This document shows, piece by piece, positions 17,336 to 61,688 of a DNA stretch of 64,000 nt. Each line of letters begins with the position of its first letter. Position 1 is the stretch's first letter. The DNA comes from Bacteroidaceae bacterium (lineage in GTDB: Bacteria > Bacteroidota > Bacteroidia > Bacteroidales > Bacteroidaceae): assembly GCA_024398435.1 (NCBI GenBank), contig JAKSJD010000011.1:19311-83310 (forward strand), in the 5' to 3' direction. A program made the translations under genes and the position numbers. The notes below the pieces were generated by a model. It searched no databases, was not told where the DNA came from, and saw only the letters and a program-made list of their open reading frames with translations.

Positions 17336-18028
17336 ATGGAAGAATTAAAATATCATTATAAGTATCCCCATCCGAGTGTGACAACAGACTGTGTCATCTT
17401 CGGATTTGACGGAGTAGAATTAAAGGTTTTACTGATTGAGAGAGGAGTAGAACCGTTCAAGGGACGGTGGGCATTTCCTGGTGGATTCATAAAGATGGAC
17501 GAGTCTGCAGAGGAAGGAGCCTTGCGCGAATTGCAGGAGGAAACAGGACTGACAGGAGCGTACATCAAGCAGTTCCATGCTTTCACAGATCCTAATCGTG
17601 ATCCTCGTGAGCGAGTAATCACCATAGCCTATTATGCACTTGTGCGCATACAGGATGTGAAAGGAGGCGATGATGCAGCCAAGGCACAATGGTTTGATTT
17701 GGATGAAGTGCCTGCTCTTGCCTTCGACCATGACAGAATACTCCGTAATGCGATGCAAGAGCTTCGCAAGCAGATACATTTCGAGCCGATAGGTTTTGAA
17801 TTGTTGCCAGAGAAGTTCACTATGTCAGCCCTTCAGCATCTATATGAAGCCATCCTAGATGTGAAGTTCGACCGCAGGAACTTCAGCAAGAAGATGCTTC
17901 ACTTTGGACTTCTTGACCTGTTGGAAGAGAAGGCAAAGGTAAGCCAGGCGAAGGAATCAGTTCTTTACACCTTCAATGCGGAAAGGTACAACGAGATGAA
18001 GCAAAAGGGATTTAGATTAGAATTTTAA
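17336..18028 (+). CDS. NrtR-like Nudix hydrolase with C-terminal winged helix
   Basis: A 230-residue protein with an N-terminal Nudix domain (about 13-140) and a C-terminal winged-helix-like domain (about 150-230), the layout of NrtR and related Nudix regulators. The Nudix box is complete: G-x5-E-x7-REL-x-EE-x-GL, running from GGFIKMDE to RELQEETGL. NrtR proteins bind ADP-ribose or relatives through the Nudix fold and repress NAD-related genes; some Bacteroides relatives control sugar genes instead. Here the next gene handles ADP-ribose, which supports an ADP-ribose-sensing role. An intact box also allows pyrophosphatase activity. Two palindromes around the promoter suggest autorepression. 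Confidence 0.88.
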   Translation: MEELKYHYKYPHPSVTTDCVIFGFDGVELKVLLIERGVEPFKGRWAFPGGFIKMDESAEEGALRELQEETGLTGAYIKQFHAFTDPNRDPRERVITIAYYALVRIQDVKGGDDAAKAQWFDLDEVPALAFDHDRILRNAMQELRKQIHFEPIGFELLPEKFTMSALQHLYEAILDVKFDRRNFSKKMLHFGLLDLLEEKAKVSQAKESVLYTFNAERYNEMKQKGFRLEF

Positions 18029-18039
18029 TCAAAATAAAT

Positions 18040-19392
18040 ATGATAGGAAGTATTATAGGTGACATTGTAGGTAGTGTCTATGAGTTCACATACCAGAATA
18101 TAAAGACGAAGGACTTCCCTTTGTTTTCAGAACAAGGAAACTACACAGATGACAGCATCCTCACAGTAGCAACAGCCGACTGGTTGTTGCATGGAGGAAA
18201 TATAGCAGAGTATTACAGCAGATACGGAGCAAAATACCCTAGGCCGATGGGAGGATATGGAGGCAACTTCCAATTGTGGATTGCACGATCCAGTGTCCGA
18301 GGAGACTATAGCCCATACAACAGCTGCGGCAACGGAAGTGCCATGCGAGTTGGACCAGTAGGATGGGCATTTGACACTAAGGATGAGACGCTAGCCGCTG
18401 CGAAGGTCTCTGCCGAGTGTACCCACAACCATCCAGAAGGCATCAAGGGCGCACAGGCTATAGCACTCTGTATCTTCATGGCAAGAAAAGGTTTTGACAA
18501 GGATACAATACGTAAGGAGGTTGAAGAGCAGTTCGGTTACGATTTGAACTTCACTTGCGACGGTATCCGCGACAGCTATACATGGGGCGGTACTTGCCAA
18601 GACAGCGTTCCGCAAGCCATTGTAGCCTTTCTAGACGGAAATGATTTTGAAGATTGCATACGCAACGCCATCAGCATAGGCGGTGACAGCGATACCATCG
18701 GCTGTATCACTGGAAGCATAGCTGAAGCGTTCTATGGTGTACCAAATGTTATTAGAAAGAAGGCGTTAGAATATCTCCTAGAAGAACTGAAAAAAGTACT
18801 TGTTGAATTTGAAAATATATACAAGCCACTAATTATGAAAGAAAATAATGAAATCAGCCCATTCGAGTTTCAAAAGAATATAATTGAAGATTATGAAAAT
18901 GTCAGAGATGCACAGCTGTATTTCTCAACACATGGAAGAACCGGTACTCTGGAAGGTAGGACCACACCGAAAAATATCAGAGAGTTGAAAGAAAACGAGG
19001 TATTTGTCTTCGGAAGCAATGCCAAAGGATATCATGGTGGTGGAGCCGCTGCTTTTGCATTGAATCACTTTGGAGCAGTATGGGGACAAGGTGACGGAAT
19101 TCAAGGGCAAAGCTATGCCATCAGTACCATGGAAGGACTGATTCGCACAGCACGCAATATTAACAGATTTATTAAATATGCGCATGATCATCCGGAAAAG
19201 AGGTTTTATGTAACTGCCATTGGATGCGGCATTGCAGGATATACGCCATTGCAGATTGCGCCTTTGTTTGAAAGAGCGTTAGTATTACCTAATGTGTTTT
19301 TGCCAGAAATATTCTGGGAATACTATTGGATAACAGGCGAACATCAACCAGAATATTTCACACCCGACGATAGTTGGAAGATGTGGAACTAG
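18040..19392 (+). CDS. ADP-ribosylglycohydrolase fused to a macro-like domain
   Basis: A 450-residue two-domain protein. Residues 1 to about 265 are an ADP-ribosylglycohydrolase (DraG/ARH3 type) that removes ADP-ribose from proteins; the two di-metal motifs are visible, NYTDDS near 30 and GGDSDTIGCITGSIAEAFYG near 225. A short helical linker leads to a second domain (about 310-440) with VFVFGSNAKGYHGGGAAAFA, GQGDGIQGQSYAISTM and TAIGCGIAGYTPLQIAPLF. That pattern matches the macro-like family known from phage-associated proteins, expected to bind ADP-ribose or a relative. The gene lies 11 nt after the Nudix regulator. An internal ATG at about residue 267 could also yield the macro-like part alone. 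Confidence 0.85.
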   Translation: MIGSIIGDIVGSVYEFTYQNIKTKDFPLFSEQGNYTDDSILTVATADWLLHGGNIAEYYSRYGAKYPRPMGGYGGNFQLWIARSSVRGDYSPYNSCGNGSAMRVGPVGWAFDTKDETLAAAKVSAECTHNHPEGIKGAQAIALCIFMARKGFDKDTIRKEVEEQFGYDLNFTCDGIRDSYTWGGTCQDSVPQAIVAFLDGNDFEDCIRNAISIGGDSDTIGCITGSIAEAFYGVPNVIRKKALEYLLEELKKVLVEFENIYKPLIMKENNEISPFEFQKNIIEDYENVRDAQLYFSTHGRTGTLEGRTTPKNIRELKENEVFVFGSNAKGYHGGGAAAFALNHFGAVWGQGDGIQGQSYAISTMEGLIRTARNINRFIKYAHDHPEKRFYVTAIGCGIAGYTPLQIAPLFERALVLPNVFLPEIFWEYYWITGEHQPEYFTPDDSWKMWN

Positions 19393-19791
19393 CTTTAAAA
19401 GAACCATTTTTTGATAAAGACTAGGCAGGTAATATCATTCCCATTCTTCCTGATTATAGCGAAGGTCGGTGTAAATGTCCGTAACAATCTGGAAGTATGC
19501 ACAGACGCATCTAGAGAAAAATAGCGATCTATTATCAGCTGTAGCTGTAATCTCTAAACAACGCAGTTGTAAAAGCTACGTTATTTATATAAAAATTAGG
19601 TGATGCTAAAAAAAAGTTATTGGTTAACGTTATCGTTATCGTTTTTATTTGTATATTTGCAAGTGAAAATTACAAAACGAGTTAGGTTCCTGTAACTGAT
19701 CTGGTGAAGTATGATGTATGTGAAGTAAAGGACAGAGCCAAATTCATAGTAGGAATACTTGACTAGACTCGATATTATATAATGTGTAATT
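19393..19791 (+). other. 400-bp spacer ahead of the DUF1848 operon
   Basis: No gene is seen. It holds an imperfect hairpin (GTAGCT near 19542 with AGCTAC near 19574) and, at 19652-19659, TATATTTG, a fair -7 element preceded by a tandem CGTTAT repeat. No TTTG lies at the right distance upstream. If used, this promoter gives a leader of about 130 nt. Confidence 0.45.
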
Positions 19792-20856
19792 ATGGCATCT
19801 TGGAAACATAAAAATATTGAGATTGATGGAAGGCTTGTTGAAGCGCAAGCCCCAATCATCATATCTGCAAGTCGTAGTACGGATATTCCGGCTTTCTATG
19901 CTGACTGGTTCTTTTACCGCCTTGAAAAAGGTTATTCCGCATGGACTAACCCTTTCAACGGGGTTAAGTCTTATGTTTCATACGATGAAACTAGGTTTGT
20001 CGTTTTCTGGTCAAAGAACCCTCGCCCTCTGTTGGAACATCTCCATAAGCTTGAAGAACGTAATATCAAGTGCTACATTCAGTACACACTTAACGATTAC
20101 GAAAAAGAACATCTGGAGAAAGTTCCATCTTTGGAGAAACGCATCGAGACATTCAAGTTATTGGTTGAACGCCTCGGAAAAGGTTCCGTAGTTTGGAGAT
20201 TCGATCCTATGATCCTCACTGATGACATTTCGGTGGATACACTTCTTTCCAAAGTTCAGAACATCGGCGACCAACTCAAAGGCTACACTGAAAAACTCGT
20301 TTTCAGTTATGCCGACATCGCTCTTTACAAGAAAGTAAAGTCTAATCTTGAAAAGAGTGGTATTCCTTACCATGAATGGACAGAAGAACTAATGGAAATT
20401 TTCGCTCAAAGACTTTCATCCATGAATAAGGAGAGAGAATGGAATTATACTCTTGCCACTTGCGGTGAGAAAATTGACATCAACAAATATGGAATTGCAC
20501 ACAATCGCTGTATTGATGGCGACCTCATTACGCGTCTTGCATGGGACGACCCCGTGCTGATGGATTTCATGAAGGTCAAAATTGAGGATGCCCCAGTTCC
20601 TTCACTATTTGGTGACGCCGAGCTTCCACAGGGTGCAATTCATTTACCTCATAATAAATACTTCATCAGCGCACACAAGAAAGATGCAGGACAGCGTGAG
20701 CTTTGCTGCTGTATGGCAGCCAAAGACATTGGAGAGTATAATACTTGCCCGCATTTTTGCGAATATTGCTATGCAAATACTAGCAAGCAGTCTGTAGCAA
20801 GAAACTACAATTGTCATCAACAGAACCCAAATTCAGAAACAATTACAGGAAAATAA
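19792..20856 (+). CDS. DUF1848 family protein with C-terminal cysteine cluster
   Basis: A 354-residue protein of the DUF1848 family. Recognisable landmarks are IIISASRSTDIPAFYADWFF at residues about 22-41, AWTNPFNG near 51, VVFWSKNPRPLLEHL near 70 and VVWRFDPMIL near 135. The C-terminus carries clustered cysteines (CCCMAA, then CPHFCEYCYAN), which in this family resemble a radical-SAM-type iron-sulfur site placed at the wrong end of the chain. The biochemical role is not known to me. It starts an apparent operon; the next gene begins 2 nt after its stop. Confidence 0.85.
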   Translation: MASWKHKNIEIDGRLVEAQAPIIISASRSTDIPAFYADWFFYRLEKGYSAWTNPFNGVKSYVSYDETRFVVFWSKNPRPLLEHLHKLEERNIKCYIQYTLNDYEKEHLEKVPSLEKRIETFKLLVERLGKGSVVWRFDPMILTDDISVDTLLSKVQNIGDQLKGYTEKLVFSYADIALYKKVKSNLEKSGIPYHEWTEELMEIFAQRLSSMNKEREWNYTLATCGEKIDINKYGIAHNRCIDGDLITRLAWDDPVLMDFMKVKIEDAPVPSLFGDAELPQGAIHLPHNKYFISAHKKDAGQRELCCCMAAKDIGEYNTCPHFCEYCYANTSKQSVARNYNCHQQNPNSETITGK

Positions 20857-20858
20857 TT

Positions 20859-23507
20859 ATGTCATATGTAGAAGATATAAGGCTCTTAAATAGTATTGAC
20901 GATATAATAGATTATTGTCATAATGCATTGCCAGTAGAATATAAAAGAACCCCTTGGACGCATCCCGAGTTGAATCGTGGCATAGGCCTGTTAACAAGCG
21001 ATGTCGCGCTCAATTGCTATATGTCTGCATATGGAGATATGCATGTTGCCAAGTGCCGAGCCGCAATGATGAATTTTCCATTTAATGATATCCAAGGAAG
21101 TATAGAAATAGTCGACTGGGGATGTGGCCAAGGCATAGGCTCAGCTACTGTAATTGAAGTGCTAAAGCAACGTAATTTGCTTCAATGGCTTCGTAAGGTA
21201 ACTCTTATTGAGCCTTCTCGAAGTGCCATCGCGAGAGCAAACGATAATGTCCGTGCACTAACTCACGGCATAGTTGAAATAGACCTGAAGAATCTTTTTC
21301 TTCCATCAAACTGTGTAGCAGAAGAGAAAACACTTACCTCTATTGGATATAAATGTAATAATGTCATCCATGTGTTTTCAAATATTTTGGATGTAACTGC
21401 TATAGACTTGGGGAAAGTCGCAAGAATGGTGGCGTCTGCACACGGAAAACACTTTGTGCTTTGTATTGGCCCTAAAAATGGTGCTGCGTACAGAATTAGT
21501 AAATTCTGCTCTGTTTTTGGAGAACAAATGTATTTCAGCCAAATTGATAGTGTTCGTTACGCTCGAACTAAGCGAACTGCACACTCGTATTCATGCATGA
21601 CAAGATGTTTTGAGTACAATGGTGCAACTATTGACCTTAACAGATTAGCTTTGGTGGGTGAGAGTCATGAGGCAATATACCATGAATATGATTTACGCTT
21701 ACAGATTCAAAACCATGTGCTATCACCTCAAAAAGCAAGAATTGCATGGAGATTGGAGAATATTTTGTCTGTGGATGATATTATGTATATTGATGCAGTT
21801 GTAAATGAAGCAGCTGTTGACTTTATTATAGTCAGACCTAACAAGGGAATTCTTTTACTTAATGTATTCGAGGTAAACCTTAATGAGTGTAAAATATCGG
21901 AAGACAAAAAGAAAATAGACGTAAACGGGCAATTATATCAATCTCCTATTGATCTTATAAACCTTTGTCAATCGAGTATCAAGGATGGTGTGGAGGAACT
22001 TTTGATGAGTACGATTGAGAATACTAAGAACTATAGTCTTATTAAAAAGGTGGTTGTATTTTCGGAAAATACTATTGATGAAATAAAGGATTTCTTTGGC
22101 CAAAAAGGTAATATAAATAATTTCGCTTTTGTTTACGGCAAGGAGTTTATTGAGAATAGAGACATCTCACAGAATTTATATACTACTATAGGCTTCCTAC
22201 GCTCCAACAATGTTTTTGACGATGTGGTTATAAGAAAATTGGCTAAGATAATATCTCCTTCTTGGCATTCTTATCAGGAAGGACGTATTGACATGCAACC
22301 AATAGGCGCACAGAAGGGACTTTCGGAAAGCAGTGTTACACACCAGAAAATAAGTGGAGTTGCTGGTTCTGGAAAGTCTCAAGTACTTGTTTTCAGAGCT
22401 GTGAATGCTATGAAACGCACTGGAGGTGATGTTTTAGTGTTGACTTATAACATTACGTTAGCAAATTACCTAAAAATGAGACTTTCGGAAATTCGAGAAG
22501 ATTTCTCTTGGGAAAAAATAGACGTCTATCCATATCATCAGTTTTTTAGAATACGGGCCGCAGAATGTCAGTTACATGTTGATTTTGGATCATATCAAGA
22601 CGAATTTTTCTTTGTTAAATCAAGAAACCATAAGAAATATTCTGCAATCTTCGTTGATGAAGTTCAAGACTATACTACGGAATGGCTTCGCATCGTCATG
22701 CAGAATTTTTTATTGGAGCCTAATGGTGAGCTAGTTGTATTCGGAGACCCAAAGCAAAATGTATTTCAACGACCTTTAGGTATAAATGGCGACATCCGCT
22801 TGGGTGTTATTGGAGGACAGTGGAATCGGCAATTAACAACCAGCCGAAGATTTACTAATCCTAGGCTGGCAAATTTAGCAGCAGCATTTCAAACACAATT
22901 CTTTGCAAATCAACCCTGCGATAATATAGTTGTGGAGAATGCTATATCAAACATGTTCAATTTCCAGATACTTTCATATATTGACATAAGGCAAAATTAT
23001 TCTTTGGATGTTGTAGTATCTAAAATAATTGACATCATATCTAATGATCAACACGAAGCAAGAGACTTTGTTGTGCTAGCTTCATCAACAAAATTACTTC
23101 GTAGTATTGACACGCTTTATCGCCAAAAAACAAATGAACAAACAGAAAATACATTTATACCAGCCGAAGCTCTTGAACGGTTAAAACAAATACATCAAGT
23201 AACTGATGAGAGAATGGCTAATTGGAAATTTAATAGGGATTTTGAGGCCCTTGAACGAACAAGAAAGCAATTGTTTACCACTGACAAACGATGCTTGAAA
23301 ATCTCTACCATACAAAGTTTCAAGGGATGGGAAGCTCCTTCCGTTATAGTTATTCTAGAAAGTGACTTTGCTATACATAATACGACATTCCGTCCAATGT
23401 CGCCACAAACAATATATACGGCGATAACTCGTGCTAGAGAAAACATATATATAATTAATATAGGTAATGATACCTATCACAACTTTTTCTACAATCAGAC
23501 ATTATGA
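20859..23507 (+). CDS. Methyltransferase-like / NERD-like / SF1 helicase fusion
   Basis: An 882-residue protein with three parts. Residues about 60-270 look like a class I SAM methyltransferase, with motif I EIVDWGCGQGIGS near 83-95 and TLIEPSRSAIARAND near 114. Residues about 290-400 look like a NERD nuclease domain, but where active members have E-x-K after the GILVL strand this one reads N-V-F, so cleavage is doubtful. Residues about 490-880 are a UvrD/Rep-type helicase: Walker A GVAGSGKS near 500, IFVDEVQDY near 597, GDPKQNVFQRP near 630, TSRRFTN near 662, STIQSFKGWEAPSVIVI near 817 and YTAITRAREN near 855. A TTG at 20811 would add 16 residues inside DUF1848; the ATG at 20859 is preferred. 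Fusion of these parts suggests a DNA-targeting defence or repair role. Confidence 0.85.
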   Translation: MSYVEDIRLLNSIDDIIDYCHNALPVEYKRTPWTHPELNRGIGLLTSDVALNCYMSAYGDMHVAKCRAAMMNFPFNDIQGSIEIVDWGCGQGIGSATVIEVLKQRNLLQWLRKVTLIEPSRSAIARANDNVRALTHGIVEIDLKNLFLPSNCVAEEKTLTSIGYKCNNVIHVFSNILDVTAIDLGKVARMVASAHGKHFVLCIGPKNGAAYRISKFCSVFGEQMYFSQIDSVRYARTKRTAHSYSCMTRCFEYNGATIDLNRLALVGESHEAIYHEYDLRLQIQNHVLSPQKARIAWRLENILSVDDIMYIDAVVNEAAVDFIIVRPNKGILLLNVFEVNLNECKISEDKKKIDVNGQLYQSPIDLINLCQSSIKDGVEELLMSTIENTKNYSLIKKVVVFSENTIDEIKDFFGQKGNINNFAFVYGKEFIENRDISQNLYTTIGFLRSNNVFDDVVIRKLAKIISPSWHSYQEGRIDMQPIGAQKGLSESSVTHQKISGVAGSGKSQVLVFRAVNAMKRTGGDVLVLTYNITLANYLKMRLSEIREDFSWEKIDVYPYHQFFRIRAAECQLHVDFGSYQDEFFFVKSRNHKKYSAIFVDEVQDYTTEWLRIVMQNFLLEPNGELVVFGDPKQNVFQRPLGINGDIRLGVIGGQWNRQLTTSRRFTNPRLANLAAAFQTQFFANQPCDNIVVENAISNMFNFQILSYIDIRQNYSLDVVVSKIIDIISNDQHEARDFVVLASSTKLLRSIDTLYRQKTNEQTENTFIPAEALERLKQIHQVTDERMANWKFNRDFEALERTRKQLFTTDKRCLKISTIQSFKGWEAPSVIVILESDFAIHNTTFRPMSPQTIYTAITRARENIYIINIGNDTYHNFFYNQTL

Positions 23508-23836
23508 ATAGTTTTACAACAATAGAAACATATGCTATCATAAAAGTTCTTTCTCATATTATGAAAGCAGATGGTATTATCCATCCTGAAGAAGAGAAAT
23601 ATATGAATCAGATATATAGTGATTTTTCCATAACAATCAATGATTTGGAAGATATTTCAAACCTCGATGATGTTCAAACGAAACTTATTATCAGTGTAAT
23701 GTCTGATGAAAAAAAGGATAGAGCTCTTGGCTTATTCGTTGGAATGGCTGAAGCGGATGGCTATTTTCACCCCATGGAGAAGGAAATCTTAAATGACATC
23801 TTTATTGATGATTATGCAAATGGTGATTTGAAATAA
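23504..23836 (+). CDS. TerB-like small protein
   Basis: A 110-residue all-helical acidic protein with two copies of the TerB/DjlA-type pattern: MKADGIIHPEEEKYMNQIY and MAEADGYFHPMEKEILNDIF. TerB domains bind metals through such acidic repeats and often accompany membrane-linked stress or phage-response systems. Its start overlaps the helicase stop (ATGA), so the two proteins are very likely made together and may form a complex. No membrane segment is present. Confidence 0.75.
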   Translation: MNSFTTIETYAIIKVLSHIMKADGIIHPEEEKYMNQIYSDFSITINDLEDISNLDDVQTKLIISVMSDEKKDRALGLFVGMAEADGYFHPMEKEILNDIFIDDYANGDLK

Positions 23837-23944
23837 TTAGTCTTTATTGTTTGTTCATGATAAAAAGTACCATTGTTTAATAGAGAAAAAGAAACGAAGA
23901 TTAAAGATTTCAACAAATTAATTGCAGAAGTTAATAAAAATATT

Positions 23945-24565
23945 ATGATACCAGGTCCTCCCCAAATTCTTACCTGCCCATTCTGTGGCGGCGAGAAACA
24001 AATTATGTCTCTTATTTCCGGCAACACATTTGGTGCCGAGTTGTGGTCGGACAATAAACAGATTGCCCCAATGCTACCTAACATCTCATATATTCAGAAG
24101 TGTCCGCATTGTGGAAAGTATTATATCCTTAGTAGGCAAGAACCGAATTTTGATAGGGATGGTGATTCCTTTGAAACTGGAGAACTGAATTTTGAAGAAA
24201 CCAAAGAAGCATATGAGCAACTGTCTAATGAAGGATTCCGAACTCATGGTGAAGAAATCGAGGTGAGATTAATGCTGTTCCACGCCTTGAACGATTGCTA
24301 TGGCCGAACTTTGCTGGGCTTTGATGGCTGTGAAGATGACTGGAACCTGTTTGTTGAGCAAGGGAAATGGCTTATTGAGCATGCTATTGCCGATAATGTG
24401 TTGAAAGCTGAGTTTTATCGCGAAATCGGTGAGTTTGACAAAGCCAGTGAATTACTCGTTGGGGTAGTGCCTGATGATGATTTCATTAGAGAATTTGCTG
24501 AGAAGATAAAGGAAAGAATCAAGCTTAAAGATAGTAAAGTTTTTATTATCAGCGGAGAAAAGTAA
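23945..24565 (+). CDS. Zinc-ribbon protein of unknown function
   Basis: A protein of 206 residues from the ATG at 23945; a TTG at 23873 would give 230. The ATG is preferred because the recognisable part begins MIPGPPQILTCPFCGG there, yet the upstream frame also looks coding-like (KDFNKLIAEVNKN). Two CxxC pairs (CPFCGG and CPHCGKYY) about 48 residues apart should bind zinc. The C-terminal half is helical, with a tetratricopeptide-like pair around EIEVRLMLFHALNDCYGR and EFYREIGEFDKASELL. I know of similar Bacteroidota proteins but not their function. It may be the substrate- or RNA-binding part of the neighbouring system. Confidence 0.7.
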   Translation: MIPGPPQILTCPFCGGEKQIMSLISGNTFGAELWSDNKQIAPMLPNISYIQKCPHCGKYYILSRQEPNFDRDGDSFETGELNFEETKEAYEQLSNEGFRTHGEEIEVRLMLFHALNDCYGRTLLGFDGCEDDWNLFVEQGKWLIEHAIADNVLKAEFYREIGEFDKASELLVGVVPDDDFIREFAEKIKERIKLKDSKVFIISGEK

Positions 24566-24596
24566 TCATTTTAAAGTCATCTAAAATAGCAAAAGA

Positions 24597-25847
24597 ATGA
24601 TTTCAGTAAAAGAAATACTTTCAGATTTAAACAAATTATCAGACGAGGAATTTGCTAATTTGTCTATATCAACACGCAGGTTATTCGAGTATAAACTTCG
24701 TGCGCTTGAATATAGTGAGTTGGAAGAATTATTAGTTAATGTACCTTCAACCAGTCAAAAACGGAGTTATATCAATGGCATAGCTATTGAGCAAGCCCAA
24801 CGCCTTGCATTTAAAGAAAAGAAAGAAGCCGAGCGTTTGGTTAAAAACGAGACAATAGAGGAATTGCTGGAACTTTACAACAACAAGAAATCTGGAAGAG
24901 TCCAAGAAGCCAGGAAGAAAATTCAACATCGCTATCCATACCTTTCATACAAAGAACAACTCGTTATCATGAGAACTTTTTTGAAAGGCGGAAAAACAGA
25001 AAGGCTTTGGGGATACAATATTCTCCGCAACTTATGGAGTGAAGATTTTAAAGATGATGTGCTTGAACTTTGGCTGAAATACAAGGAAGAGCGATGCGGA
25101 TGGCTATTGATAAAATATTTTTCTACTGACGAAATCCGTCCTTTTGTAGATGACCTCAGCACCAGAAATAGCTATTACAATCTTTGTAAGAAATTGGTCA
25201 AAGAAGAATGGTTTTCGATTGACATTAATTTGTTGAAACAATTACCTTTGACACATGAAGAGTTTATATGGATTGTGTCTCAGTCAAAGAACGGGATATC
25301 CGAAGAAGAAGCCATGTCCTATGTATACAGAAACATTGCTTACACTTTGTGTGGTTTGAATGTGTATACTTATCCCGACGGCCAATTTGCATATGGAAGG
25401 AACATTTATTATTATCCTCCAAAGATAGATGACTTGTTCTATATGCGTAAGATTATAGGTATGGACAATATGCTGACCAGTATATGCAGAATGGGATATG
25501 ATGTCGCTGTTCGAAAATTTTTGGAACTGGACCAGTCCATACATGATTCGATAATTGATATGTACTATGAAGATGAGGTTGGAGGTGATCAACGATATGA
25601 GGCTATTGTTCGTGAATGGCTCGCCGAATACCGAGCTAAATTCCCTAAAGAATATAGATACATATTGGATAATAACTCAGGCACTAAGCCAGTCAAAAGG
25701 TCTTATATTAGGAACAGGCCGATTACTGAAGAAGAGTATAACCAAATGGCATTTGACAATGAATCATTCAATGCCCTTGTGGAGCAATTTAAGTTAGAGG
25801 TTCCAAAGGATGAAGAAACTAATTATGCAGATGATCCTCCGTTTTAA
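24597..25847 (+). CDS. Unknown helical protein
   Basis: I do not recognise this 416-residue protein. The first 110 residues are highly charged and coiled-coil-like (E-K-K-E-A-E-R-L runs), the middle (about 115-310) is a helical solenoid-like region rich in aromatic residues, and the tail is acidic and Pro-rich, ending YADDPPF. There is no signal peptide, membrane segment or catalytic motif that I can name. It lies 31 nt after the zinc-ribbon gene and 14 nt before the lipoprotein gene, so it probably belongs to the same transcript. Confidence 0.7.
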   Translation: MISVKEILSDLNKLSDEEFANLSISTRRLFEYKLRALEYSELEELLVNVPSTSQKRSYINGIAIEQAQRLAFKEKKEAERLVKNETIEELLELYNNKKSGRVQEARKKIQHRYPYLSYKEQLVIMRTFLKGGKTERLWGYNILRNLWSEDFKDDVLELWLKYKEERCGWLLIKYFSTDEIRPFVDDLSTRNSYYNLCKKLVKEEWFSIDINLLKQLPLTHEEFIWIVSQSKNGISEEEAMSYVYRNIAYTLCGLNVYTYPDGQFAYGRNIYYYPPKIDDLFYMRKIIGMDNMLTSICRMGYDVAVRKFLELDQSIHDSIIDMYYEDEVGGDQRYEAIVREWLAEYRAKFPKEYRYILDNNSGTKPVKRSYIRNRPITEEEYNQMAFDNESFNALVEQFKLEVPKDEETNYADDPPF

Positions 25848-25861
25848 TCATTACAAATTAA

Positions 25862-26566
25862 ATGAATATGGCAAATACGGTAAAAAACTGTAAGGAGCAA
25901 AAGGCATGTTTGAAAGACATGCCAATGGTAGATATTGCTACAGAAATCATAGGATACGCAATATCGATACTGATAATTATGTTGATTTCAGGTTGCAACA
26001 ATCAAAACTCCATTCAAGAACCTAATGAAGAGGCAGACACCTGTATTGAGATTTATGTTAATTGTATGAAGTGCCAACAGGAGCTGGATACAGTCATTGG
26101 TAAGTTCGATGGTGTGAATATCGATACTCTGTTCCTTCAGCAACAGGAAATCATCGATATTCATGATGTCTCTTATCTGCTTACTTCCACATCGGGAAAG
26201 CTTCCGGCAATTCAAATGTATGGTTATCATGATGTTAAACCATGTGTTTATGAAGAAGGAGATCTTGACGGAAACGGAACTGATGAAGTTGCCTATATGA
26301 ATTCCATGGACACTGGTGGATGGAGAATGTATTACATACTCTCATTCAAGGATGGCAAGTGGATGAATATGTTCCCTGACTTAAAAGACATTTTGTACAC
26401 AGGCACTTCTTTCAGGGGATTAGACTATGAAATCGCCCAACCATACGAGAAGGGCAAGGTCAAATTAACATACTATTTCGAAGGGTATGACGAAAAAATA
26501 GGTGACAGGATAGAAGAAGTTAGAGATACCATAGTCTCACCATCATTTGGGGATTTATTGCAATAA
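25862..26566 (+). CDS. Putative lipoprotein with Ca-binding-like Asp loop
   Basis: A protein of 234 residues from the first ATG. A hydrophobic stretch (AISILIIMLISGC) ends in a lipobox with Cys45, so the true start is likely the Met at 20 or 22 (nt 25919 or 25925), giving a normal lipoprotein signal. The mature part has EGDLDGNGTDEVAYM, the D-x-D-x-N/D-G pattern of FG-GAP/VCBS-type calcium loops, followed by W-R-M-Y-Y and DGKW strands. It should be anchored to a membrane facing the periplasm. It is the last gene of the run. An imperfect CACTGA/TCAGTG hairpin at 26586-26603 follows the stop. Confidence 0.7.
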   Translation: MNMANTVKNCKEQKACLKDMPMVDIATEIIGYAISILIIMLISGCNNQNSIQEPNEEADTCIEIYVNCMKCQQELDTVIGKFDGVNIDTLFLQQQEIIDIHDVSYLLTSTSGKLPAIQMYGYHDVKPCVYEEGDLDGNGTDEVAYMNSMDTGGWRMYYILSFKDGKWMNMFPDLKDILYTGTSFRGLDYEIAQPYEKGKVKLTYYFEGYDEKIGDRIEEVRDTIVSPSFGDLLQ

Positions 26567-26619
26567 AACATTTGTCGTTAGGAACACTGATTTTAGTCAG
26601 TGCCATTAATGTATCACAA

Positions 26620-26668
26620 CAAAAAAAAGAGTGCTGACCGATTCGTGAATGAATGTGATCAGCACCTC
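26620..26668 (-). terminator. Terminator of the initiator tRNA gene
   Basis: On the minus strand GAGGTGCTGATC pairs with GTCAGCACTC around a long loop and is followed by eight T. It lies just downstream of the tRNA 3' end. Confidence 0.75.
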
Positions 26669-26679
26669 GTGGGTTGTTG

Positions 26680-26753
26680 TTGCGGAGATTGGATTCGAAC
26701 CAATGACCTCCAGGTTATGAGCCTGGCGAGCTACCAGCTGCTGCCACTCCGCG
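26680..26753 (-). tRNA. Initiator tRNA-fMet (CAT)
   Basis: The minus strand folds as a cloverleaf: acceptor CGCGGAG/CTCCGCA, anticodon stem CCAGG/CCTGG around CTCATAA, and T arm ATTGG-TTCGAAT-CCAAT. Position 1 is C opposite A72, the unpaired C1-A72 end that marks initiator tRNAs and stops their use in elongation. The CCA end is not encoded (the sequence continues ACAACA). It has its own promoter and terminator, and is flanked by the accessory block on its 3' side. Confidence 0.93.
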
Positions 26754-26789
26754 ATGTTATGTTGTTGCCTTCATTTCTGAAAGCGAGTG

Positions 26790-26821
26790 CAAAGGTACGA
26801 ACTTTTTTCGACATTGCCAAA
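26790..26821 (-). promoter_or_regulatory. Promoter of the initiator tRNA gene
   Basis: On the minus strand: TTTG, 20 bp, TACCTTTG, ending 37 bp before the tRNA 5' end. Confidence 0.85.
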
Positions 26822-26909
26822 CTTTTTGGTGGAAAAAATGCCTTTTTCAGCATGTTGGCTGATTTCGCCTTCGTTTTTCTTTGGTAATGATAACATAATG
26901 ACACAACAA

Positions 26910-26990
26910 TTTTTCTCTCTCCACTAATCGACTTGTCGCTTGGCTCGTCCAAGAAATATTATCCATAAGTTAAAAACAAATCCATCCGGA
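26910..26990 (+). repeat. Dispersed intergenic repeat, copy 2
   Basis: Begins TTTTTCTCTCTCCACTAATC and includes CTTGGCTCGTCCAAG. At 26974-26990 lies AAACAAATCCATCCGGA, which recurs inverted at 38045-38061. Apart from this and the tamB promoter, nothing is seen between 26884 and 27169. Confidence 0.7.
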
Positions 26991-27102
26991 AGGTCATTGC
27001 CTAGATTCTCGCTTTTGCAAACTCTAAAACCTTTGGTTTTGTGGCTCGAAATCGTCAAAATCTTTCCCCTATAATAAAATAATAATGTGTTTGTTGTATA
27101 TT

Positions 27103-39663: not shown

Positions 39664-42600
39664 TTACTTCACGAGTACTTTCTTTCCATTCAGGATATAG
39701 ATGCCGCGTGGCAGATTGTCGAGCGAATCTCCTACTCGTATGCCTGTAACTGAATGGATGGCTCCGTTGGCGGCGTTGGCATTTATTCCGTCGATACCTG
39801 TTGAAGCACTGTATTCCAATCGGATTGGACTTGTGAGCGAACCAAGCATAGCGTCGTTTGAATAGATTACGGTTGGCGAGAGTTCTACTTCGCATCCGTC
39901 GAGAATGGTACGGAACGAAATCTCTGGTTCGTTGCCTTCTCCTGGAATGGTGATGAAGTAGCGTCCGTTGGTCGCACGGTCGGCTGAACGATATTCGTTG
40001 CCGTCGAATGTGGCAACTTCGAGTGTGTCGGTCTTGACATCGTTGATATATACTTCTGCCACAACTGTCATATTGCCGGAATACTGACTCATATCACCTA
40101 CTTCGAAGTTGGAAGAACCTGCCTCGGCTGCCATCAGAGGAGCTCGGCGTTCCTTCGTGCCGGCTGCTGTCTCTGGATAGATGAGGGTCTTGGCGTTTGA
40201 GGCAACGGAATGGTAGAGATAGCCCTTTCCTGGTTCGATGCTCGTAAGTGTACCTTCCCATGTGTAGCCGTTGTAGATGGCGAATGCAGTGCGCGACTTG
40301 ATGAGATCGTCGGTCTCTGGGTCCATTCCGGCGAGAGCACGGTCGAGGCTGAGGGTTGTCTGTGATGGATTGCCAATCCAGTTCCAGTTCTTCGTGATGG
40401 TCTGCTTACCTTCTTCAGCGGAGATTGGTTGTCCATGAGTGGTGAATGTAGTAGCGGCGGCGGCATACATCATATAGAGTTTGGCACCTCTGATGGATGC
40501 AAGCGAACCTTCGTAGTGTGTTCCGTCGGACATAGCGAACGATGTGCGGTTCTTCACGATTGTGATATATTCTGCATAATCGTTCATCACGCTTGCCAAG
40601 TCGGCTGGTAATGGCTGTACATAGAGTGATGTCCAGTTCCAACCCTTGTTGAGAGCGATCTGCTGTTCGATGACATTCAGGGTGGTGAGGATTACAGGCT
40701 TGCTGAATGTGCCATATATCATGCCGTCGGCGAATGTGATGTCTTCGGAGGCAGTGACTCCGCTGTAGATGATTCCCTTCGAGGCATCCCATACCTTGAA
40801 ATCGACTGGCTGGCGTGATATTTCGTCGTTGCCGTAGAGGGTCATGCAGAGGTAATAGGCATCACGGGTGGTCAGGTACATTGGCTGTGCCACGCCGATA
40901 CACATGTCGCCGATGAATGCAGCCACGCGGGTGTCGGAATTTTCACATACGGCTCCGTCGAGAATCAGTTGGGCTGTGAGGTTCATCGTCTTGTCGAGGT
41001 TTTCGGTGTCAACTGTCCAGTCAGGAGTGTCGCCGGTGATGATGAGCGAGATGTCGAGTGGTTCGTAGATTCCGCTGTTGCCCACTAGATAGATGTCGCT
41101 GCCGTAGTGGCCGATGGCAGTGGAGTTGGCCACACGGAATGTGATGGTTTCCACGCTTTCTGGCTCGAGTGTGCCCTGAGTCTGACTTGCAGAGAGCCAT
41201 GTAGGCAGACCCATAATCATCCATTGCTGAGCATCTCCGCCGGTGTTGGTGAATGAAATGTCGAACGAAGTGCCTTGTGCTTCCTCGGCCATGAGGTCAA
41301 TATTTTGCTGAGTCCATCTCAGAGGGTTCTTCCTTACATAAGCCGACCATGTGATAGGTTCGTTCACATTCTCGTGCATGTCCTTCACATTGCGGAGAGT
41401 GAAGTAAACGGTAGTGCCTTCGAGTCGGTCGGGGGCATCTGTGAGGTTGAGGAATATCTCGCGTTCGCTTGCAGTGTAAGTGTATTGCAAGTTGGTGAGG
41501 GTTGGAGCATTCTTGAGAGCAGGCGAAGTGGTGGCCTTGACAACGGTAGCCGAGGCATTGCCCGACTTGTTGCCGGAATTGTCGGCAAGAGAGAAGTTGG
41601 TGAAGAGTTGGTTGGCTTGGTCGAGAGCAGTCGATTCGAATGGATAGTAAGCCACGAGTCCGTAGGCATTGGTTGTGTCCACTTTATTATATCTATTGTC
41701 GGCGATATACTTGCCCTGGAGCGATGCCTTCCACAGACGGATTTCGTCGAAGTCGCCCTTCATTTGGTTGCTGAATACATTGTGCTTGAGGTTGTCAAAA
41801 CCGCGTCGGCCTCCGAAGTAGAGACTGTCGCCCTGAAGGGCAGGAACAGATTGCTCAGCCACTGTGAGGATGTTGTTGCCATCGAGATAGAGGATGGCAG
41901 AGGCTCCGCGAAGTACATTGAGAGCCATGTGGTGCCAAACGCTTGGAACGGCTTTAGCCTCCGACTTGAACTGTCCGCTGTTTGTAGTGAGCGTGAGTCG
42001 GTTGTCGCCGTCGATATCGATGCGAATCTTGTCGTCGCCGGAATTGAAGATAGTGGCATCCCCCGTTTCGTCGGCCTTGAACCAGAATTCGAGAGCATAA
42101 TTTTCGTCGATAGTGGCCGAAGCACGCGAGAGGTCGATGGCGAGAGGTTGGGTGCCTTCGATATGAGCTGCAAAGTTCTCATTCTGGAGCATCCACTGGT
42201 CGCCCGAGAGGAAGAGGTTGCGACTGCGGGCAATATCCGTGCAGACATTGCCGTGACCTTCGTCCATCTTCCAGTAACCGATAAGTCCCTTGGTGCCAGC
42301 CGACTTGGTCTTGTTCATCGAAGCAAGAGATTCAACTGATGTGCGGGCAATGTTCCATAGAGCAATTTCCTGAATAGCACCAATGAATCCGTGTCCGACC
42401 GAGAGTTTACCCTTGGCCTTGTTGGTGCCAACGCTTTGGTCGTGGAACAAATCTACTGTCTGGCCGTCGTAAGCACAAACGGCACTGAGTTTGTGTCCGC
42501 TTCCATTGCCAGAGTACGAGATAGTGAGGTAAGTCCACTTATTGAGAGGAACTATATCTTCAGAAATGAATGTCTCGCCAGCAATGCCAATGACAAGATG

Positions 42601-45600
42601 ACCATCAGCGTCGATGTCGGCATTGACAGCATTTTGTGTTGTTCCGAGAGAGAAGAGGTTGCCGTCGGCAGTGCGGTTGAGCCACATATCGATAGTGAAG
42701 TCGCGACCGCCACTGATATCAATCGATACATCGGTCCAGGCTCCGTCGGTTCCTCCATTGAAGAGAGCAGCAACGCTATGGTCAACGTTGGCATCATTCA
42801 ATGCACCGGTCACAATGAAGTTGTTGGCCTTCGTGAGTTCTCCGTTGCGGATATCCTCGTTGAATCTGACATTGATATCATCGGCAGCGGTGAGGATTCC
42901 GTTGGCAGGAGTTGGAGTGCCGAGCAATGCAGGACGGGCAGTGTCTTTCGCGAGAGGAATTTCCTCACTGTACTTATATACCTCGTCGCTGCCGTATGAA
43001 CTGACAGATACCACGCGGAAACAATAGTTGCCATCTGGGTAGGAATCCATATCGAGAGAATATTTGACAGAGGCTCCCGTAGGCAACAACTCGTTTGAGG
43101 CAGTCAGGTTGTTCTCGCTGATCACATATTCGCGGAGTTGGGTCCATCCGGAATCACCATCCATTTGATATTGCAGACGGAATGCCTTGAGATTGTAGTA
43201 GTTGCGGTCGAATCCACTGAATGAGAGGTCGAGGCGGTTACCTGTGAACATATTCATTACAGAATTGGATGCTGTGAGATGAACATCAGAAGATGAAGGA
43301 ACGAACTGAGCCGAAATCCAAACCGTGTCGGCAATGAGGGCCCAAGTGCTCGTAGGGTCGTACTGAGTAGGCGAAGCCAGGACAATTCCGATATTCGTGT
43401 AGTCGAGTATGCTGAGATTCGACTGAGCCAAAAGGAGAGTCTTGGTGAGAGTTTCGCCGGCAGGAACCTTTATGCTTCTGCCTTCCGACAAAGGAACTCC
43501 ATCGACAGAGATTTGTGCTCCGTTGGCATTGGATTCATCGATTACGAGCAAGCGATAATATATGTCGGAGTCGATTTCTGAATCGTTGGAGAGGCGGAGA
43601 GTGAATGTAGCAGCCTGTCCGGAAGGAACATCAACAATAGTGGCTTGGTCGACACTGATATGAGGAACCTCAATCTGCATCGTACCTTCATTGAGTTTAT
43701 GGCGTCCAGGCTCGTAGTATGCAGTCCATTCCTCGCCTTCGTATGGGTTGCAGGTCTGTCCGCCACGAGTGTGGAAAATAGGCGAATAGTTGCCGTAGCG
43801 GAGTACATCGACTGTGATGGCGTCGCCGCTGCCCTCTTCTGCGAGAGTATAGGCGAAGGAAGCCGAATGGGTGGTTTCATCGCTTGATTCATGTTCTTCA
43901 GCACCGCCCGTTTCGGTCTTGAGTTCGAAGATAACACCCGTTCCGTTGATAGTAGCACCGAATGAGTCGCCGACGATAGCCACAGCTCCGGCTGTCCATT
44001 CCTTCGAACTTGTATTGGTTGTGTCGTTTTCGGAAGTGAAATTCACGGAACTGCCCGAATCGAAAGAAATATTGTGTTCGAGGTATGCCTCTCGGTTGTC
44101 GTAGGCCCTTACTTTCTCTTCTTCATTGAATGCGAGCCAATCCTTCCAACGCTCAATTTGGGCATTGAGCCAATAGATGGAATCCTGATAGCACGAGTCG
44201 GCCAATGCAGAGTCGACAGGTCGGAATGCCTTGTAGCTCGGTCCGTCGCTGCTTGGTCCGTTGGTATGATTGGTAGGCCATGCTGTGGCATCATCGTTGT
44301 TGGTTCCCCAGAGAGGGTCGTCATCGGTGAGGGTGGTGAGGTAAACCATGTGGTCGGTGGTGTTCTTGTAGTTGCTGAGAACATCAGGAGTGACAGTCTG
44401 GAGATATGAGTGCTTCAAAGCGTCGAAGTTAGGAATGAGCGTATTCACGATATGGTCTTGTGAGTAGGCGAAGGTAGTGCCGAAACTCATATTAGAGACA
44501 AGTACATCGTGCATTGAGATTTCCACTGTGTTTGCTCCTGCGCTTGTACGCTTGAAACCAACCTCGCGCGACTTTCCGAATGTGATGTTGGTGGAGTTGC
44601 CGAAGAAGATATCGCCATTGCTGCCTACATACTCTGGTTCGCCCGATGTGCTGATAGTTCGGGTGGTGGTTACGCTGACTGTCTGCTCGTTGGAATTTTC
44701 TCCTTCTGCAGTTACCTTTGCTCCAACTTCCAGAATATCATAGACATGAGCCTCGTTTTCGAGCGACAGACCAACACCTCCCACTATAGTTGTGATTTTA
44801 GAACCGAAATTGGTCTTTGTGTTGATTTCGTCTTCCGTACTCCATTTGCTGCCTATCTTTGAGACATGGTTGGTGACAGTTCCTGAGGTCCATTCAGCGG
44901 ATGAGTTGGTGCCAGGAGGGTCGCGCAATATCATTTGCACGGCATCAGGACCTGATGTGATGAAGTTGGTGCCGGTAGGGAGGTCACCGAGGATGATGCC
45001 TGGGAGTCCGCCTTCAATCCAGTTGTAGAGTCGTCCGTTGATATCATAGGTCATTGAAATGCTGCGGCTGTATGGTGCGCTGATGTTTGGAAGTCCTGCC
45101 TTCCATGTGTATGTTGCCTGTCCGAGTGAATCGAGACTTAGCTGATTGTCTTCCAGTTCAATCACTTCACCGGCTGCGCCTTCGCTGTTGTCGTCCATAT
45201 ATACAGCCTGACTTGCCGACAAGGCATTGGAGATGGTCACTACAACTCCAGCGAGCGGAACCTTCGAATCCACAGGATTTGAGCGGTCGTCGTAGTTGGT
45301 GTAGGATTCGTAGCCTTCGAGTCGGAAGTTGTACTTATCGCCCATGACGAAGATAGGAGCTCCGTATTTGTATGCGTATTGCCCGCTTTCAGTGTTCTTG
45401 GCATAGATGTCGTTGATATTGAGTTCGCCCTCAACATCGCTGAACTTGTATTCATTTATTCCGAATGCTCCATCATCTGGGTTTGTCTTGTCGTCCACAA
45501 TGAATGTAGGCTGTGAATGGTAAACCTTTGAGAAAGCGATATTGTAGGTGTATGTTTCGCCGGTTTCGAAAAGTGTGTCAGTAGTTTCGACGAGAGGATT

Positions 45601-59106: not shown

Positions 59107-59319
59107 ATGGCAGAAATAAAGAAGCTTAATAGAATCAAGGTTGTTTTGGCAGAAAAAGACAGAACTGGCAAATGGCTGGCAGCGCAAGTTGGCAAAAGCA
59201 ATTGTACCGTATCTAAATGGTGCAGCAATACAGCTCAGCCAGACCTGCAAACTTTAGACAAGATTGCCATTGCGTTAGATGTAAATGTAAAAGATCTGCT
59301 TAACGACACCGAGAAATAA
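59107..59319 (+). CDS. XRE-family helix-turn-helix regulator (paralogue of the divergent gene)
   Basis: A 70-residue protein consisting almost only of an HTH domain (IKVVLAEKDRTGKWLAAQVG, then NCTVSKWCSNTAQPDLQTL). Starting at the ATG at 59107 places the -7 element upstream; an in-frame extension to 59044 would include it and is rejected. Its stop overlaps the next start by one base (TAATG), so it is co-translated with the AlbA-domain gene. The pair of similar, divergently oriented regulators suggests an autoregulated switch for the restriction locus. Confidence 0.88.
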   Translation: MAEIKKLNRIKVVLAEKDRTGKWLAAQVGKSNCTVSKWCSNTAQPDLQTLDKIAIALDVNVKDLLNDTEK

Positions 59320-60758: not shown

Positions 60759-60832
60759 GTTGTATAATTGAGAACGAACTGCAATCATAAGTTATAAACA
60801 TATTCCATACTCATCAAAAAGATACTCAAAGT

Positions 60833-61684
60833 ATGAGAGCCAAGAATACATTCACAATCCACACGGAGCTAATAGATGGTACGCTTTCAGGAGCTCGTAA
60901 CATATATATGGGAGCAAACTCAACTTGCCATCTATATGTCATACCTCGTGATGAAATCAATATCGCCAACAACATAGCTGATATTGCAGGCCAACCTGCA
61001 TTTTATATTCTGCTTGGCGACACTAACGCACTGAAACCGGAGGCATATATCGGTCAGACAACGGATTTCGCAAACCGCAAGAATGATCATGTACAAAAGA
61101 AAGACTTTTGGAGGACGGCTCTCGTATTCATTTCTGACAACCACAAGATATATGGCGATGATGTAAAATACTTGGAGTATTTAGGAATAGAGGCAGCTCA
61201 AGGCGTAGACTCTTTCTCTCTGTTGAATGGTGCTAACCCTCGAAAGCCTAATATAGCTCCATTCCGTGTCAATGACATGGAAGTGTTCTTCCGTGACATA
61301 CAATTACTCACTCGCTTCTATGGTTGTGGTATCTTTGATGCTCCTGTAGCAAAGCCACAACCAGAACATTTGTTCTACGTACATGCAACCGATCGTCCTG
61401 CTGAGGGAATCGGTTACTATGATGAGAATGCAAAGCAGTTTGTTCTTGTAAAAGGTAGTATAATAGCAAACGAGGTAGTAACAAGTTTCAAGTCTATAGT
61501 TGCTCGTGAGAAATTCATCAAAGAACACTGTAAGACAGACAAAGGACAGATTGTTCTGCAACATGATGTACCTATGGATAGTCCAAGCGGTGCAAGTGGC
61601 ATTATTCTTGGTCGTCCAAGCAATGGATGGGACGACTGGAAAGATGCAGATGGAAACAAGTTAGGTAAAGTCGTAAAACGATAA
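60833..61684 (+). CDS. GIY-YIG nuclease domain protein with DUF4357
   Basis: A 283-residue protein. The N-terminal half has the GIY-YIG core (FYILLGDT, then EAYIGQTTDFANRKNDHVQ, then WRTALVFIS), a small endonuclease fold. The C-terminal part ends in the DUF4357 pattern (SGIILGRPSNGWDDWKDADG). Proteins of this type are found next to type I restriction systems and phage-defence genes. It starts 74 nt after the AlbA_2 gene and ends 4 nt before the HsdR gene. Confidence 0.88.
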   Translation: MRAKNTFTIHTELIDGTLSGARNIYMGANSTCHLYVIPRDEINIANNIADIAGQPAFYILLGDTNALKPEAYIGQTTDFANRKNDHVQKKDFWRTALVFISDNHKIYGDDVKYLEYLGIEAAQGVDSFSLLNGANPRKPNIAPFRVNDMEVFFRDIQLLTRFYGCGIFDAPVAKPQPEHLFYVHATDRPAEGIGYYDENAKQFVLVKGSIIANEVVTSFKSIVAREKFIKEHCKTDKGQIVLQHDVPMDSPSGASGIILGRPSNGWDDWKDADGNKLGKVVKR

Positions 61685-61688
61685 TGAT

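Follow-up and report, generated by a model that had tools for sequence, protein, structure and literature searches.

A putative member of an apparently undescribed mobile module of gut bacteria: DUF1848, methylase-helicase and TerB genes in a Bacteroidaceae bacterium

Do the six open reading frames (ORFs) that lie on the + strand at positions 19792-26566 of a 64,000-nucleotide stretch of Bacteroidaceae DNA (GenBank assembly GCA_024398435.1, contig JAKSJD010000011.1; the whole stretch is called the window here) form a single defence operon, as an earlier reading of the letters had proposed (the sequence-only reading), or do only some of them belong together? All six are found where that reading had placed them, in a genome bin (G000) of 2.3 Mb in 32 contigs that is 78% complete. 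Comparison with related loci tips the balance somewhat towards a division, in which the first three genes, encoding a DUF1848 protein, a fusion of methyltransferase-like, NERD-like and helicase parts, and a TerB-like protein, would be a member of a mobile, modular, defence-type family, and genes 4-6 would be companions in the same island, outside the fixed unit.

The three-gene unit and its relatives

The DUF1848 protein (354 amino acids (aa), 19792-20856; Pfam PF08902, 1.4e-88; PADLOC RTasDUF1848, 1e-35) is followed at +2 nucleotides (nt) by the fusion (882 aa, 20859-23507, start ATG at 20859; PADLOC C3a187, 1.4e-32; Pfam UvrD, 3.2e-9), whose methyltransferase-like (MT) domain was recognised by alignment, and this is followed at -4 nt by the TerB-like gene (110 aa, 23504-23836; Pfam TerB, 5.5e-9), the third core gene of the UvrD subtype. 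The window thus has the arrangement by which the family is defined, with DUF1848 directly upstream and TerB directly downstream of an MT protein. The fusion was matched in 24 of 301 family genomes. Each of five full-length relatives from other genomes, of which four are 64-85% identical and one is 33% identical, has DUF1848 directly upstream, and four of the five have TerB directly downstream; many other matches share only the N-terminal domain, which is joined to differing proteins, mostly with DUF1848 upstream.

An alignment of 18 N-terminal domains, used to scan GTDB, located 404 places, of which the best 80, mostly from Bacteroidales, were examined; with four loci on viral contigs they make up a module set of 84 loci (loci are designated by L numbers) and 86 MT ORFs, some loci giving two ORFs and some being near-copies. 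By C-terminal type, 47 of these ORFs are UvrD, 33 RecQ and 6 other. DUF1848 was found within 100 nt upstream of 72 of the 86, within 1.5 kb of 4 more, and elsewhere in the locus for 5. Of 251 family genomes (a set that overlaps the 301), 20 contain the MT domain, at 22 places in all: 17 have DUF1848 directly upstream, 3 have it within 5 kb, and the contigs of the other 2 lack it (adjacency counted by hand). The co-occurrence that the sequence-only reading had named as its check is therefore borne out for genes 1-3, which appear from these comparisons to be a member of a widespread, apparently undescribed mobile module of gut bacteria.

The DUF1848 protein is probably an iron-sulphur enzyme of a type resembling the radical S-adenosylmethionine (SAM) enzymes. 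Near its C-terminus is a CX3CX2C motif (C319, C323, C326), and further cysteines stand at C224, C240, C305 and C307; in an alignment of 50 DUF1848 proteins all seven cysteines and many other residues occupy invariant columns, and CX3CX2CYA is found in 49 of the 50 rows, the exception (L144) having a spacing two residues longer. A looser cysteine pattern is present in 25 of 25 short-form DUF1848 proteins and in 15 of 15 others recognised by their start motif (from 30 and 20 loci, respectively). The DUF1848 profile also matches a neighbouring radical-SAM-like piece in L231 (5e-5), and a remark in Pfam reportedly treats DUF1848 as radical SAM. Searches of solved-structure sequences gave nothing useful for DUF1848 and, for the radical-SAM-like piece of L231, one weak unrelated match and no photoproduct lyase. 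Short DUF1848 proteins (L052-L081) occur mostly as one copy per genome in family f17, and a UmuC-like gene, read by eye, lies in the flank of 7 of these 30 loci, a hint of a core DNA-damage role of the DUF1848 family.

The fusion comprises a class I methyltransferase-like domain (aa 1-255), a NERD-like region (approximately aa 300-400) and a superfamily 1 (SF1)/UvrD-type helicase (approximately aa 480-880). Residues 1-255 have no Pfam match of their own; we take the stretches VDWGCGQG and LIEPS in this part to be typical class I methyltransferase motifs, the methylase motif including D86, G88 and G90, and D86, C89-Q91, E118, P119, N175 and others are invariant among 61 aligned MT domains, of which up to 13 are matched by generic methyltransferase families of Pfam (E 0.01). 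The nearest solved sequences, matched weakly, are methyltransferases (1dus, 0.25; 3gu3, 0.97), one of them listed only as MJ0882. The NERD-like region lies within the part of the fusion (286-865) that matches the PADLOC profile C3a187, named "NERD+UvrD", over nearly its whole length.

Active NERD nucleases carry the motif E-x-K. With the motif positions assigned to the aligned fusions as we presume them to be, the acidic D321 is present in nearly all of 45 aligned UvrD-type proteins, the window's included, the lysine is absent from all 45, and the Pfam-recognised NERD of L217 shows E-F-K; because the lysine is absent, the NERD-like region is probably degenerate and not a working nuclease, and its candidacy as an acting nuclease was rejected. 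The SF1 helicase motifs are intact across 45 aligned proteins, the Walker lysine of the window's helicase being K506. As for the domains named in the sequence-only reading, DUF1848, the helicase (as UvrD) and TerB are confirmed by Pfam, NERD is recovered through C3a187 only and not through Pfam, and the zinc-ribbon matches of gene 4 lie below cut-off. In L096-L098, L107, L137, L138, L148, L152 and L153 an extra N-terminal stretch of about 130 aa or more precedes the MT domain, with WG-type repeats read by eye.

The third gene differs between the subtypes. TerB lies directly downstream of 30 of the 47 UvrD-type ORFs, 3 of which have no same-strand downstream ORF (contig end or opposite strand), and of none of the 33 RecQ types; a protein with a C-terminal transmembrane segment, judged by a hydropathy window, is the third gene of 28 of the 33 RecQ types and of none of the 47 UvrD types. 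Weak Pfam matches on three examples suggest a coiled coil in the RecQ third gene, and the TerB-like protein of the window contains two ADGxxHPxE stretches. The RecQ motors scanned match the profiles of DpdF (5e-74) and PsyrT (3e-51). Two members, from a Flavobacterium bin and a Chloroherpeton bin, have a Mokosh-like motor, the former in a locus without DUF1848 and the latter with DUF1848 downstream, and a few members have leucine-rich or Sel1 repeats.

DUF1848 also occurs in a second architecture, found in 9 of 20 loci fetched away from MT genes (L215-L222 and L229), which consists of a methylase with or without NERD in front (matched by the profile in every one of the nine), an SF1-like gene standing by itself (335-380 aa), large proteins numbering one or two, and DUF1848. 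The large proteins are 595-825 aa long, and one that was tested had no Pfam or PADLOC match. The methylase families of the two architectures look related (hhalign 86.7%, E 4e-6, 112 columns). A NERD-AAA-methylase fusion is found in L228, and L227 has a short SF1-like ORF at its contig end (by eye).

The nature of the motor bears on the target of the module. The closest motor profiles are those of DNA helicase families (UvrD, GajB, DpdF, PsyrT and MkoA), and because of these helicase relatives, and of the UmuC-like genes near short DUF1848, DNA is favoured over RNA. An RNA- or ribosome-directed module, in which the methylase and DUF1848 would modify tRNA or rRNA alongside an RNA helicase and bring about translational arrest or ribosome protection, would fit the match of the window motor to Viral_helicase1, an RNA helicase family, and the methylase of L228, which matches ribosome-linked Rsm22 near cut-off (19.7 bits vs 23 in one search, 23.8 in another), but it is made unlikely by the DNA helicase profiles and UmuC-like genes just named and by the failure of the Rsm22 model on the MT domains themselves. 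The name "Rsm22-like" was dropped for the window domain, PF09243 having no match there even at E 10; no Rsm22 match is listed among the 61 MT domains at E 0.01, and the sole match in bin G000 is on another contig.

Histories of DUF1848 and of the methylase-helicase cassette

In a tree of 92 MT domains the UvrD types form one clade (98/96), and all eight labels require 8 changes (RecQ 5, UvrD 1). Swapping of motors behind the MT domain was accordingly rejected as the main theme: the motor is fairly stable on the MT tree, and exchange has affected DUF1848 more than any other part. When 67 DUF1848 proteins from this locus set were placed on a quick tree, 18 changes were required for the UvrD and RecQ labels, compared with a mean of 20.7 for shuffled labels, and 64 of 500 shuffles were as low; starred branches force no fewer than 7 of the changes, and two long branches meet in this tree. 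A DUF1848 tree with one UvrD clade is rejected (p 1.7e-8). Within types DUF1848 proteins have a mean identity of 0.649 and between types of 0.644, and the corresponding values for the MT domain are 0.492 and 0.364. Individual pairs are discordant in either direction: L145 (RecQ) and L098 (UvrD) are 90% identical in DUF1848 and 39% in MT, and L085 and L083 are 90% identical in MT and 62% in DUF1848.

DNA identity was followed in 150-nt bins for 12 pairs picked for discordance (8 one way, 4 the other) and 3 concordant pairs. It changes around the DUF1848 stop in the 12 discordant pairs (for L152/L150 a long N-terminal insertion breaks the comparison) and, where DUF1848 is alike (8 pairs), near the DUF1848 start as well; L145 and L098 retain 78% identity in the last 150 nt upstream of DUF1848, so that upstream DNA sometimes moves along. 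DUF1848 and the cassette have been exchanged both ways, and in discordant pairs the breaks fall at the gene borders or no more than about 150 nt from them.

Mantel tests were run per subtype with near-copies dropped (both proteins above 97%). The control comparisons gave a rho of 0.80 (UvrD types) and 0.83 (RecQ types) for MT vs motor, and of 0.67 and 0.78 for motor vs third gene; DUF1848 vs MT gave 0.14 in UvrD types, with 61 of 999 permutations as high. The history of DUF1848 is largely its own, by exchange that is extensive but not complete. Cassettes of one type are accompanied by DUF1848 proteins of differing histories, so that what DUF1848 makes or acts on is probably shared by the modules, and the enzyme probably works without a tailored protein interface.

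The same observations could describe an independently mobile or selfish gene that settles before methylase-helicase operons without being a functional partner of them. The largely independent history, the identity changes near both borders and the occasional co-movement of upstream DNA (L145/L098) are what such a gene would leave behind, but its usual presence, the short junctions, its recurrence with the second methylase-helicase architecture, and the invariance of its cysteines and of many other residues make this account quite improbable.

Mobility, defence-type neighbours and companion genes

Copies of the window's fusion with 83-85% identity occur in three other genera, and none was found in the remaining 16 genomes of its own genus, of which many are incomplete; the nearest neighbours of the window's member in the MT tree belong to Bacteroidaceae, Prevotellaceae and an unplaced Bacteroidota bin. 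The protein flanking the island, which we take to be AsmA-like, is mostly 46-60% identical within the genus. Gene order upstream of its gene is not shared between the window and those relatives in the genus that were examined, and for this reason the island border could not be mapped and an empty-site proof of insertion was given up. L164, in which about 5 kb separate a RecQ-type member from a phage terminase gene, represents a phage-borne copy, and MT836254, an unannotated record from faeces that was entered as a phage clone and is marked unverified, contains DUF1848 and a UvrD-type gene. A plasmid link was discarded, the search having yielded two weak Moraxella records only.

From 68 loci (10 near-duplicate loci being left out), at most three neighbouring proteins per locus were taken, each 130-900 aa long and encoded no more than 4 kb away, RecQ third genes being excluded. 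The tally covered 147 of 185 such proteins (63 loci), along with 148 of 150 control genes from 20 regions of four module-carrying genomes. At 1e-15, PADLOC matches comprised 105 (overlapping) families, 25 of them listed, among the 147 neighbours vs 22 among the 148 control genes, most of the latter RecQ-like. The Pfam families of the neighbours (25 of 101 listed) include Schlafen AlbA_2 (4), RhuM (3), AbiEii-type AAA (3), transposase (3), integrase (2), Fic (2) and RVT_1 (2), and also ferredoxin and hydrogenase families; AbiP2 is another defence-type neighbour, and in L150 a Druantia III DruE gene ends 1 nt before DUF1848. Judged from such genomic context, the patchy occurrence, the phage-borne copy and the defence-type neighbours would favour a role in defence or genome integrity. 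The sequence-only reading is supported in proposing an apparently unnamed combination of defence type that includes methylase, helicase and TerB parts.

Some RecQ-type loci point in another direction. In L113 (6974-18086) one run contains genes for VWA, PP2C, a 365-aa protein, MT-RecQ, a coiled coil, VWA, DUF1848 and an endonuclease/exonuclease/phosphatase family member, and TerY-P-like parts are here built into the module. VWA and PP2C genes adjoin the module in L113, and homology indicates them in L115, L118 and L136 too; they resemble the TerY-P-associated systems reportedly treated by Anantharaman in 2012 and, together with TerB itself and with the UmuC-like genes near short DUF1848, would suit a stress or DNA-repair island of Ter type, kept for damage or metal stress and not against phages. 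That explanation is improbable in view of the patchy distribution, the phage-borne copy and the Druantia III, Schlafen, AbiEii-type, RhuM and AbiP2 neighbours, and TerB is also listed for the phage-defence systems Shango and Bunzi in a passage of PMC10952713.

Several observations weigh against a mobile defence module centred on DUF1848. The radical-SAM assignment depends on the motif and on the Pfam remark, the Pfam Radical_SAM family matching at E 0.096 only. PF08902 is present in 55 of 296 phylum genomes, mostly as one copy per genome in one family, and 9 of the 20 DUF1848 loci fetched away from MT genes have no methylase-helicase partner within three genes; because it is found without methylase-helicase partners and is mostly single-copy in one family, DUF1848 must have other roles. 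A directly upstream DUF1848 is lacking for 14 of the 86 MT ORFs, and 5 have none in the locus. The paired TerB stretches were found, by a crude pattern, in only 9 of 30 relatives. Mobile copies are few (four viral-contig loci, one unverified and unannotated phage record, and two weak plasmid matches), and the PADLOC tallies count overlapping families, not proteins, with one of the 147 neighbours being the split-off helicase piece of the module in L135. The independence of DUF1848 is also incomplete: one of the three concordant pairs (L104/L105) changes identity inside DUF1848; DUF1848 vs MT gives a rho of 0.41 in RecQ types (0 of 999 permutations as high) and of 0.13 over 70 loci (3 of 999); and DUF1848 gives a rho of 0.44 with TerB (1 of 999) and of 0.34 with the RecQ third gene (4 of 999).

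Downstream of the three-gene unit, and outside its core, lie genes for a zinc-ribbon-like protein (230 aa, 23873-24565, + strand) with two CxxC pairs and Pfam matches below cut-off, a helical protein (416 aa, 24597-25847, +) with nothing above Pfam cut-off, and a putative lipoprotein (234 aa, 25862-26566, +) with a LISGC lipobox seen by eye and no Pfam match. They are spaced by +36, +31 and +14 nt, counting from TerB. The zinc-ribbon gene may start at TTG 23873 or at ATG 23945, and of the spacing of -4 to about 108 nt given in the sequence-only reading the lower value fits, whereas the upper one is obtained only with the later ATG (otherwise +36).

Were all six genes one defence operon with a lipoprotein effector at its end, the common strand, the gaps of -4 to +36 nt and the shared low G+C would be expected, as would helical-type genes about 1-3 kb downstream of the UvrD-type gene, which are present in L089, L123, L135 and L146. 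Comparison of the loci largely refutes this reading and leaves it highly improbable: no examined locus shows gene order 1-6, zinc-ribbon relatives occur in 2 of the 84 module loci (L110 and L121) and lipoprotein relatives in none, and genes 4-6 are found mostly in genomes without the module. Relatives of the zinc-ribbon protein were found in 9, of the helical protein in 10 and of the lipoprotein in 2 of 151 family genomes, the window's own genome counted. Besides the window, one genome with such relatives (G038) is listed with an MT domain; its helical-type gene lies upstream of its RecQ-type module, and its zinc-ribbon relative is on a different contig. In G001, where no MT domain was found, zinc-ribbon and helical relatives are about 1.1 kb apart. 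The single six-gene operon was consequently rejected. The membrane-linked end point ascribed to the last gene fell with it, since a lipoprotein absent from all 84 loci cannot carry that claim, although the third gene of the sister RecQ subtype does encode a membrane-tailed protein.

The helical gene stands apart from its two companions. The window protein finds relatives in 6 of the 84 module loci (L089, L135, L144, L146, L151 and L155), a family profile adds L123, and this profile, built partly from module loci, has no match in 20 control regions of 12 kb. The gene lies just upstream of DUF1848 in L144 and L151 and about 3 kb downstream in L155. Because its relatives recur near modules at varying places, it is a recurrent companion without a fixed place, and the zinc-ribbon gene and the lipoprotein are hardly linked to the module.

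The block of six genes lies in AT-rich DNA next to a tRNA, as the sequence-only reading had described. In 2-kb steps from 19001 to 27000 the G+C content is 34.5-39.7%, vs 41-54% across most of the window (another low stretch, of 38.6-40.1%, is at 57-60 kb), and the six genes have 31-42%, vs 44-46% in the flanking NrtR, ADP-ribosylglycohydrolase and AsmA-like genes. A tRNA-Met (26679-26753, - strand) lies beyond the block and is followed by the AsmA-like gene. The 399-nt non-coding leader (19393-19791, + strand) is a probable promoter region, weakly indicated by one TAnnTTTG at 19652, presumably a -7 type box of Bacteroidetes; the + strand of the window holds 29 such boxes, so that a single one in the leader is weak evidence of a promoter.

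Upstream of the leader (17336-19392) are a gene for an NrtR-type Nudix regulator and one for an ADP-ribosylglycohydrolase fused to an A1S_2505-type domain. Relatives of the glycohydrolase occur at E 1e-40 or better in six other module loci (L092, L123, L135, L137, L151 and L155) and weakly in L157, NrtR relatives occur in L092 and L121, and in L123, L135, L151 and L155 helical-type genes are nearby as well; a link of NAD or ADP-ribose to defence is possible. At the right end of the window (59319-63998) a Schlafen/AlbA_2-like ORF and two more ORFs, the last resembling the type I restriction protein HsdR in its first residues by eye, possibly constitute a second defence island. A very large ORF of 3158 aa (39664-49140, - strand) has a signal-peptide-like start.

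Proposed function and comparison with known systems

Sequence comparison shows that DUF1848 with its conserved radical-SAM-like motif as a rule stands directly before a protein starting with a class I methyltransferase-like domain, which is fused to one of several motors or repeats; in the window the NERD-like region is degenerate and the SF1 helicase that follows it is intact. The third small gene varies with the motor, TerB accompanying the UvrD type of the window and a membrane-tailed protein the RecQ types, and DUF1848 and the methylase-helicase cassette have been traded against each other at or near the gene borders, DUF1848 usually being kept. In the proposed scheme, the helicase may serve as a sensor that patrols DNA or RNA and recognises abnormal structures arising from phage replication or damage; the two SAM-dependent enzymes might act chemically on the bases of the nucleic acid it has bound, by modification or repair, or label self; and the third gene product, TerB or the membrane-tailed protein, could relay activation to arrest or to a membrane response.

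Parts of this scheme have counterparts in known systems. Shango is described in a passage of PMC10250203 as TerB with an ATPase (SngB) and a DEAD/DEAH helicase (SngC), found in defence islands and acting against phages. As in Shango (SngABC), a TerB-like protein accompanies a helicase in the window, whereas the helicase is of SF1 type with a methylase-like domain and DUF1848 beside it, in place of the ATPase and DEAD/DEAH helicase of that description; no Sng family matches any of eight window proteins at E 0.1, and the window is not Shango by definition. PADLOC C3a187, matched by most of the fusion, and Nhi (nuclease-helicase) differ from it in that the fusion has an added N-terminal methylase-like domain, lacks the lysine of the nuclease E-x-K motif in all 45 proteins, and has DUF1848 and TerB as neighbours. 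The DRT-associated PADLOC families RTasDUF1848, RTasHel and RTasNERD-Hel match window or related proteins, and a crude YxDD scan of the window ORFs, made without a profile search of the whole window, found no convincing reverse transcriptase. The Dpd (DpdF) and PsyrTA (PsyrT) profiles match the motor of the sister RecQ subtype, but the RecQ proteins of the module have a methylase-like domain in front and DUF1848 and membrane-tailed partners. Gabija, with the OLD-type nuclease GajA beside the helicase GajB, is represented by partial GajB matches only, with no GajA family among the eight window proteins.

The sensor role proposed for the helicase is drawn from Hachiman (HamAB), a precedent for a damage-sensing defence helicase, of which HamB is described in a passage of PMC12278908 as sensing DNA damage and being similar to Hel308; the window motor is of SF1 type, in contrast to that description, and no HamA family is among the PADLOC matches of the eight window proteins. 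TerY-P triads are tied to restriction-type systems in a passage of PMC11090510, and some RecQ-type loci do carry VWA and PP2C beside the module, but no kinase is among the L113 neighbours scanned and the window has TerB only. A literature search, which most subscription papers lay outside and which is therefore weak evidence, found no paper naming DUF1848, RTasDUF1848, PF08902 or C3a187 and no title describing the DUF1848/methylase-helicase/TerB combination; the passages on NERD and radical SAM in PMC10853773 and PMC12839542 do not describe it. The DUF1848/methylase-helicase module is apparently undescribed.

DUF1848 gains a setting from these comparisons, as an enzyme that is usually kept beside methylase-helicases yet is largely independent of them in its exchanges. 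Should the module be immune, radical-SAM-type chemistry would be added to helicase-centred defence, and the replacement of TerB and membrane-tailed partners by each other according to helicase type would make their roles testable. It is a tentative suggestion that the module represents a new immune class, in which an interchangeable radical-SAM DUF1848 chemistry, for example base modification or repair on nucleic acid performed jointly with the methylase, would serve many sensor or motor cassettes that are reshuffled behind it at the gene border, in a manner comparable to the shuffling of specificity subunits in restriction systems.

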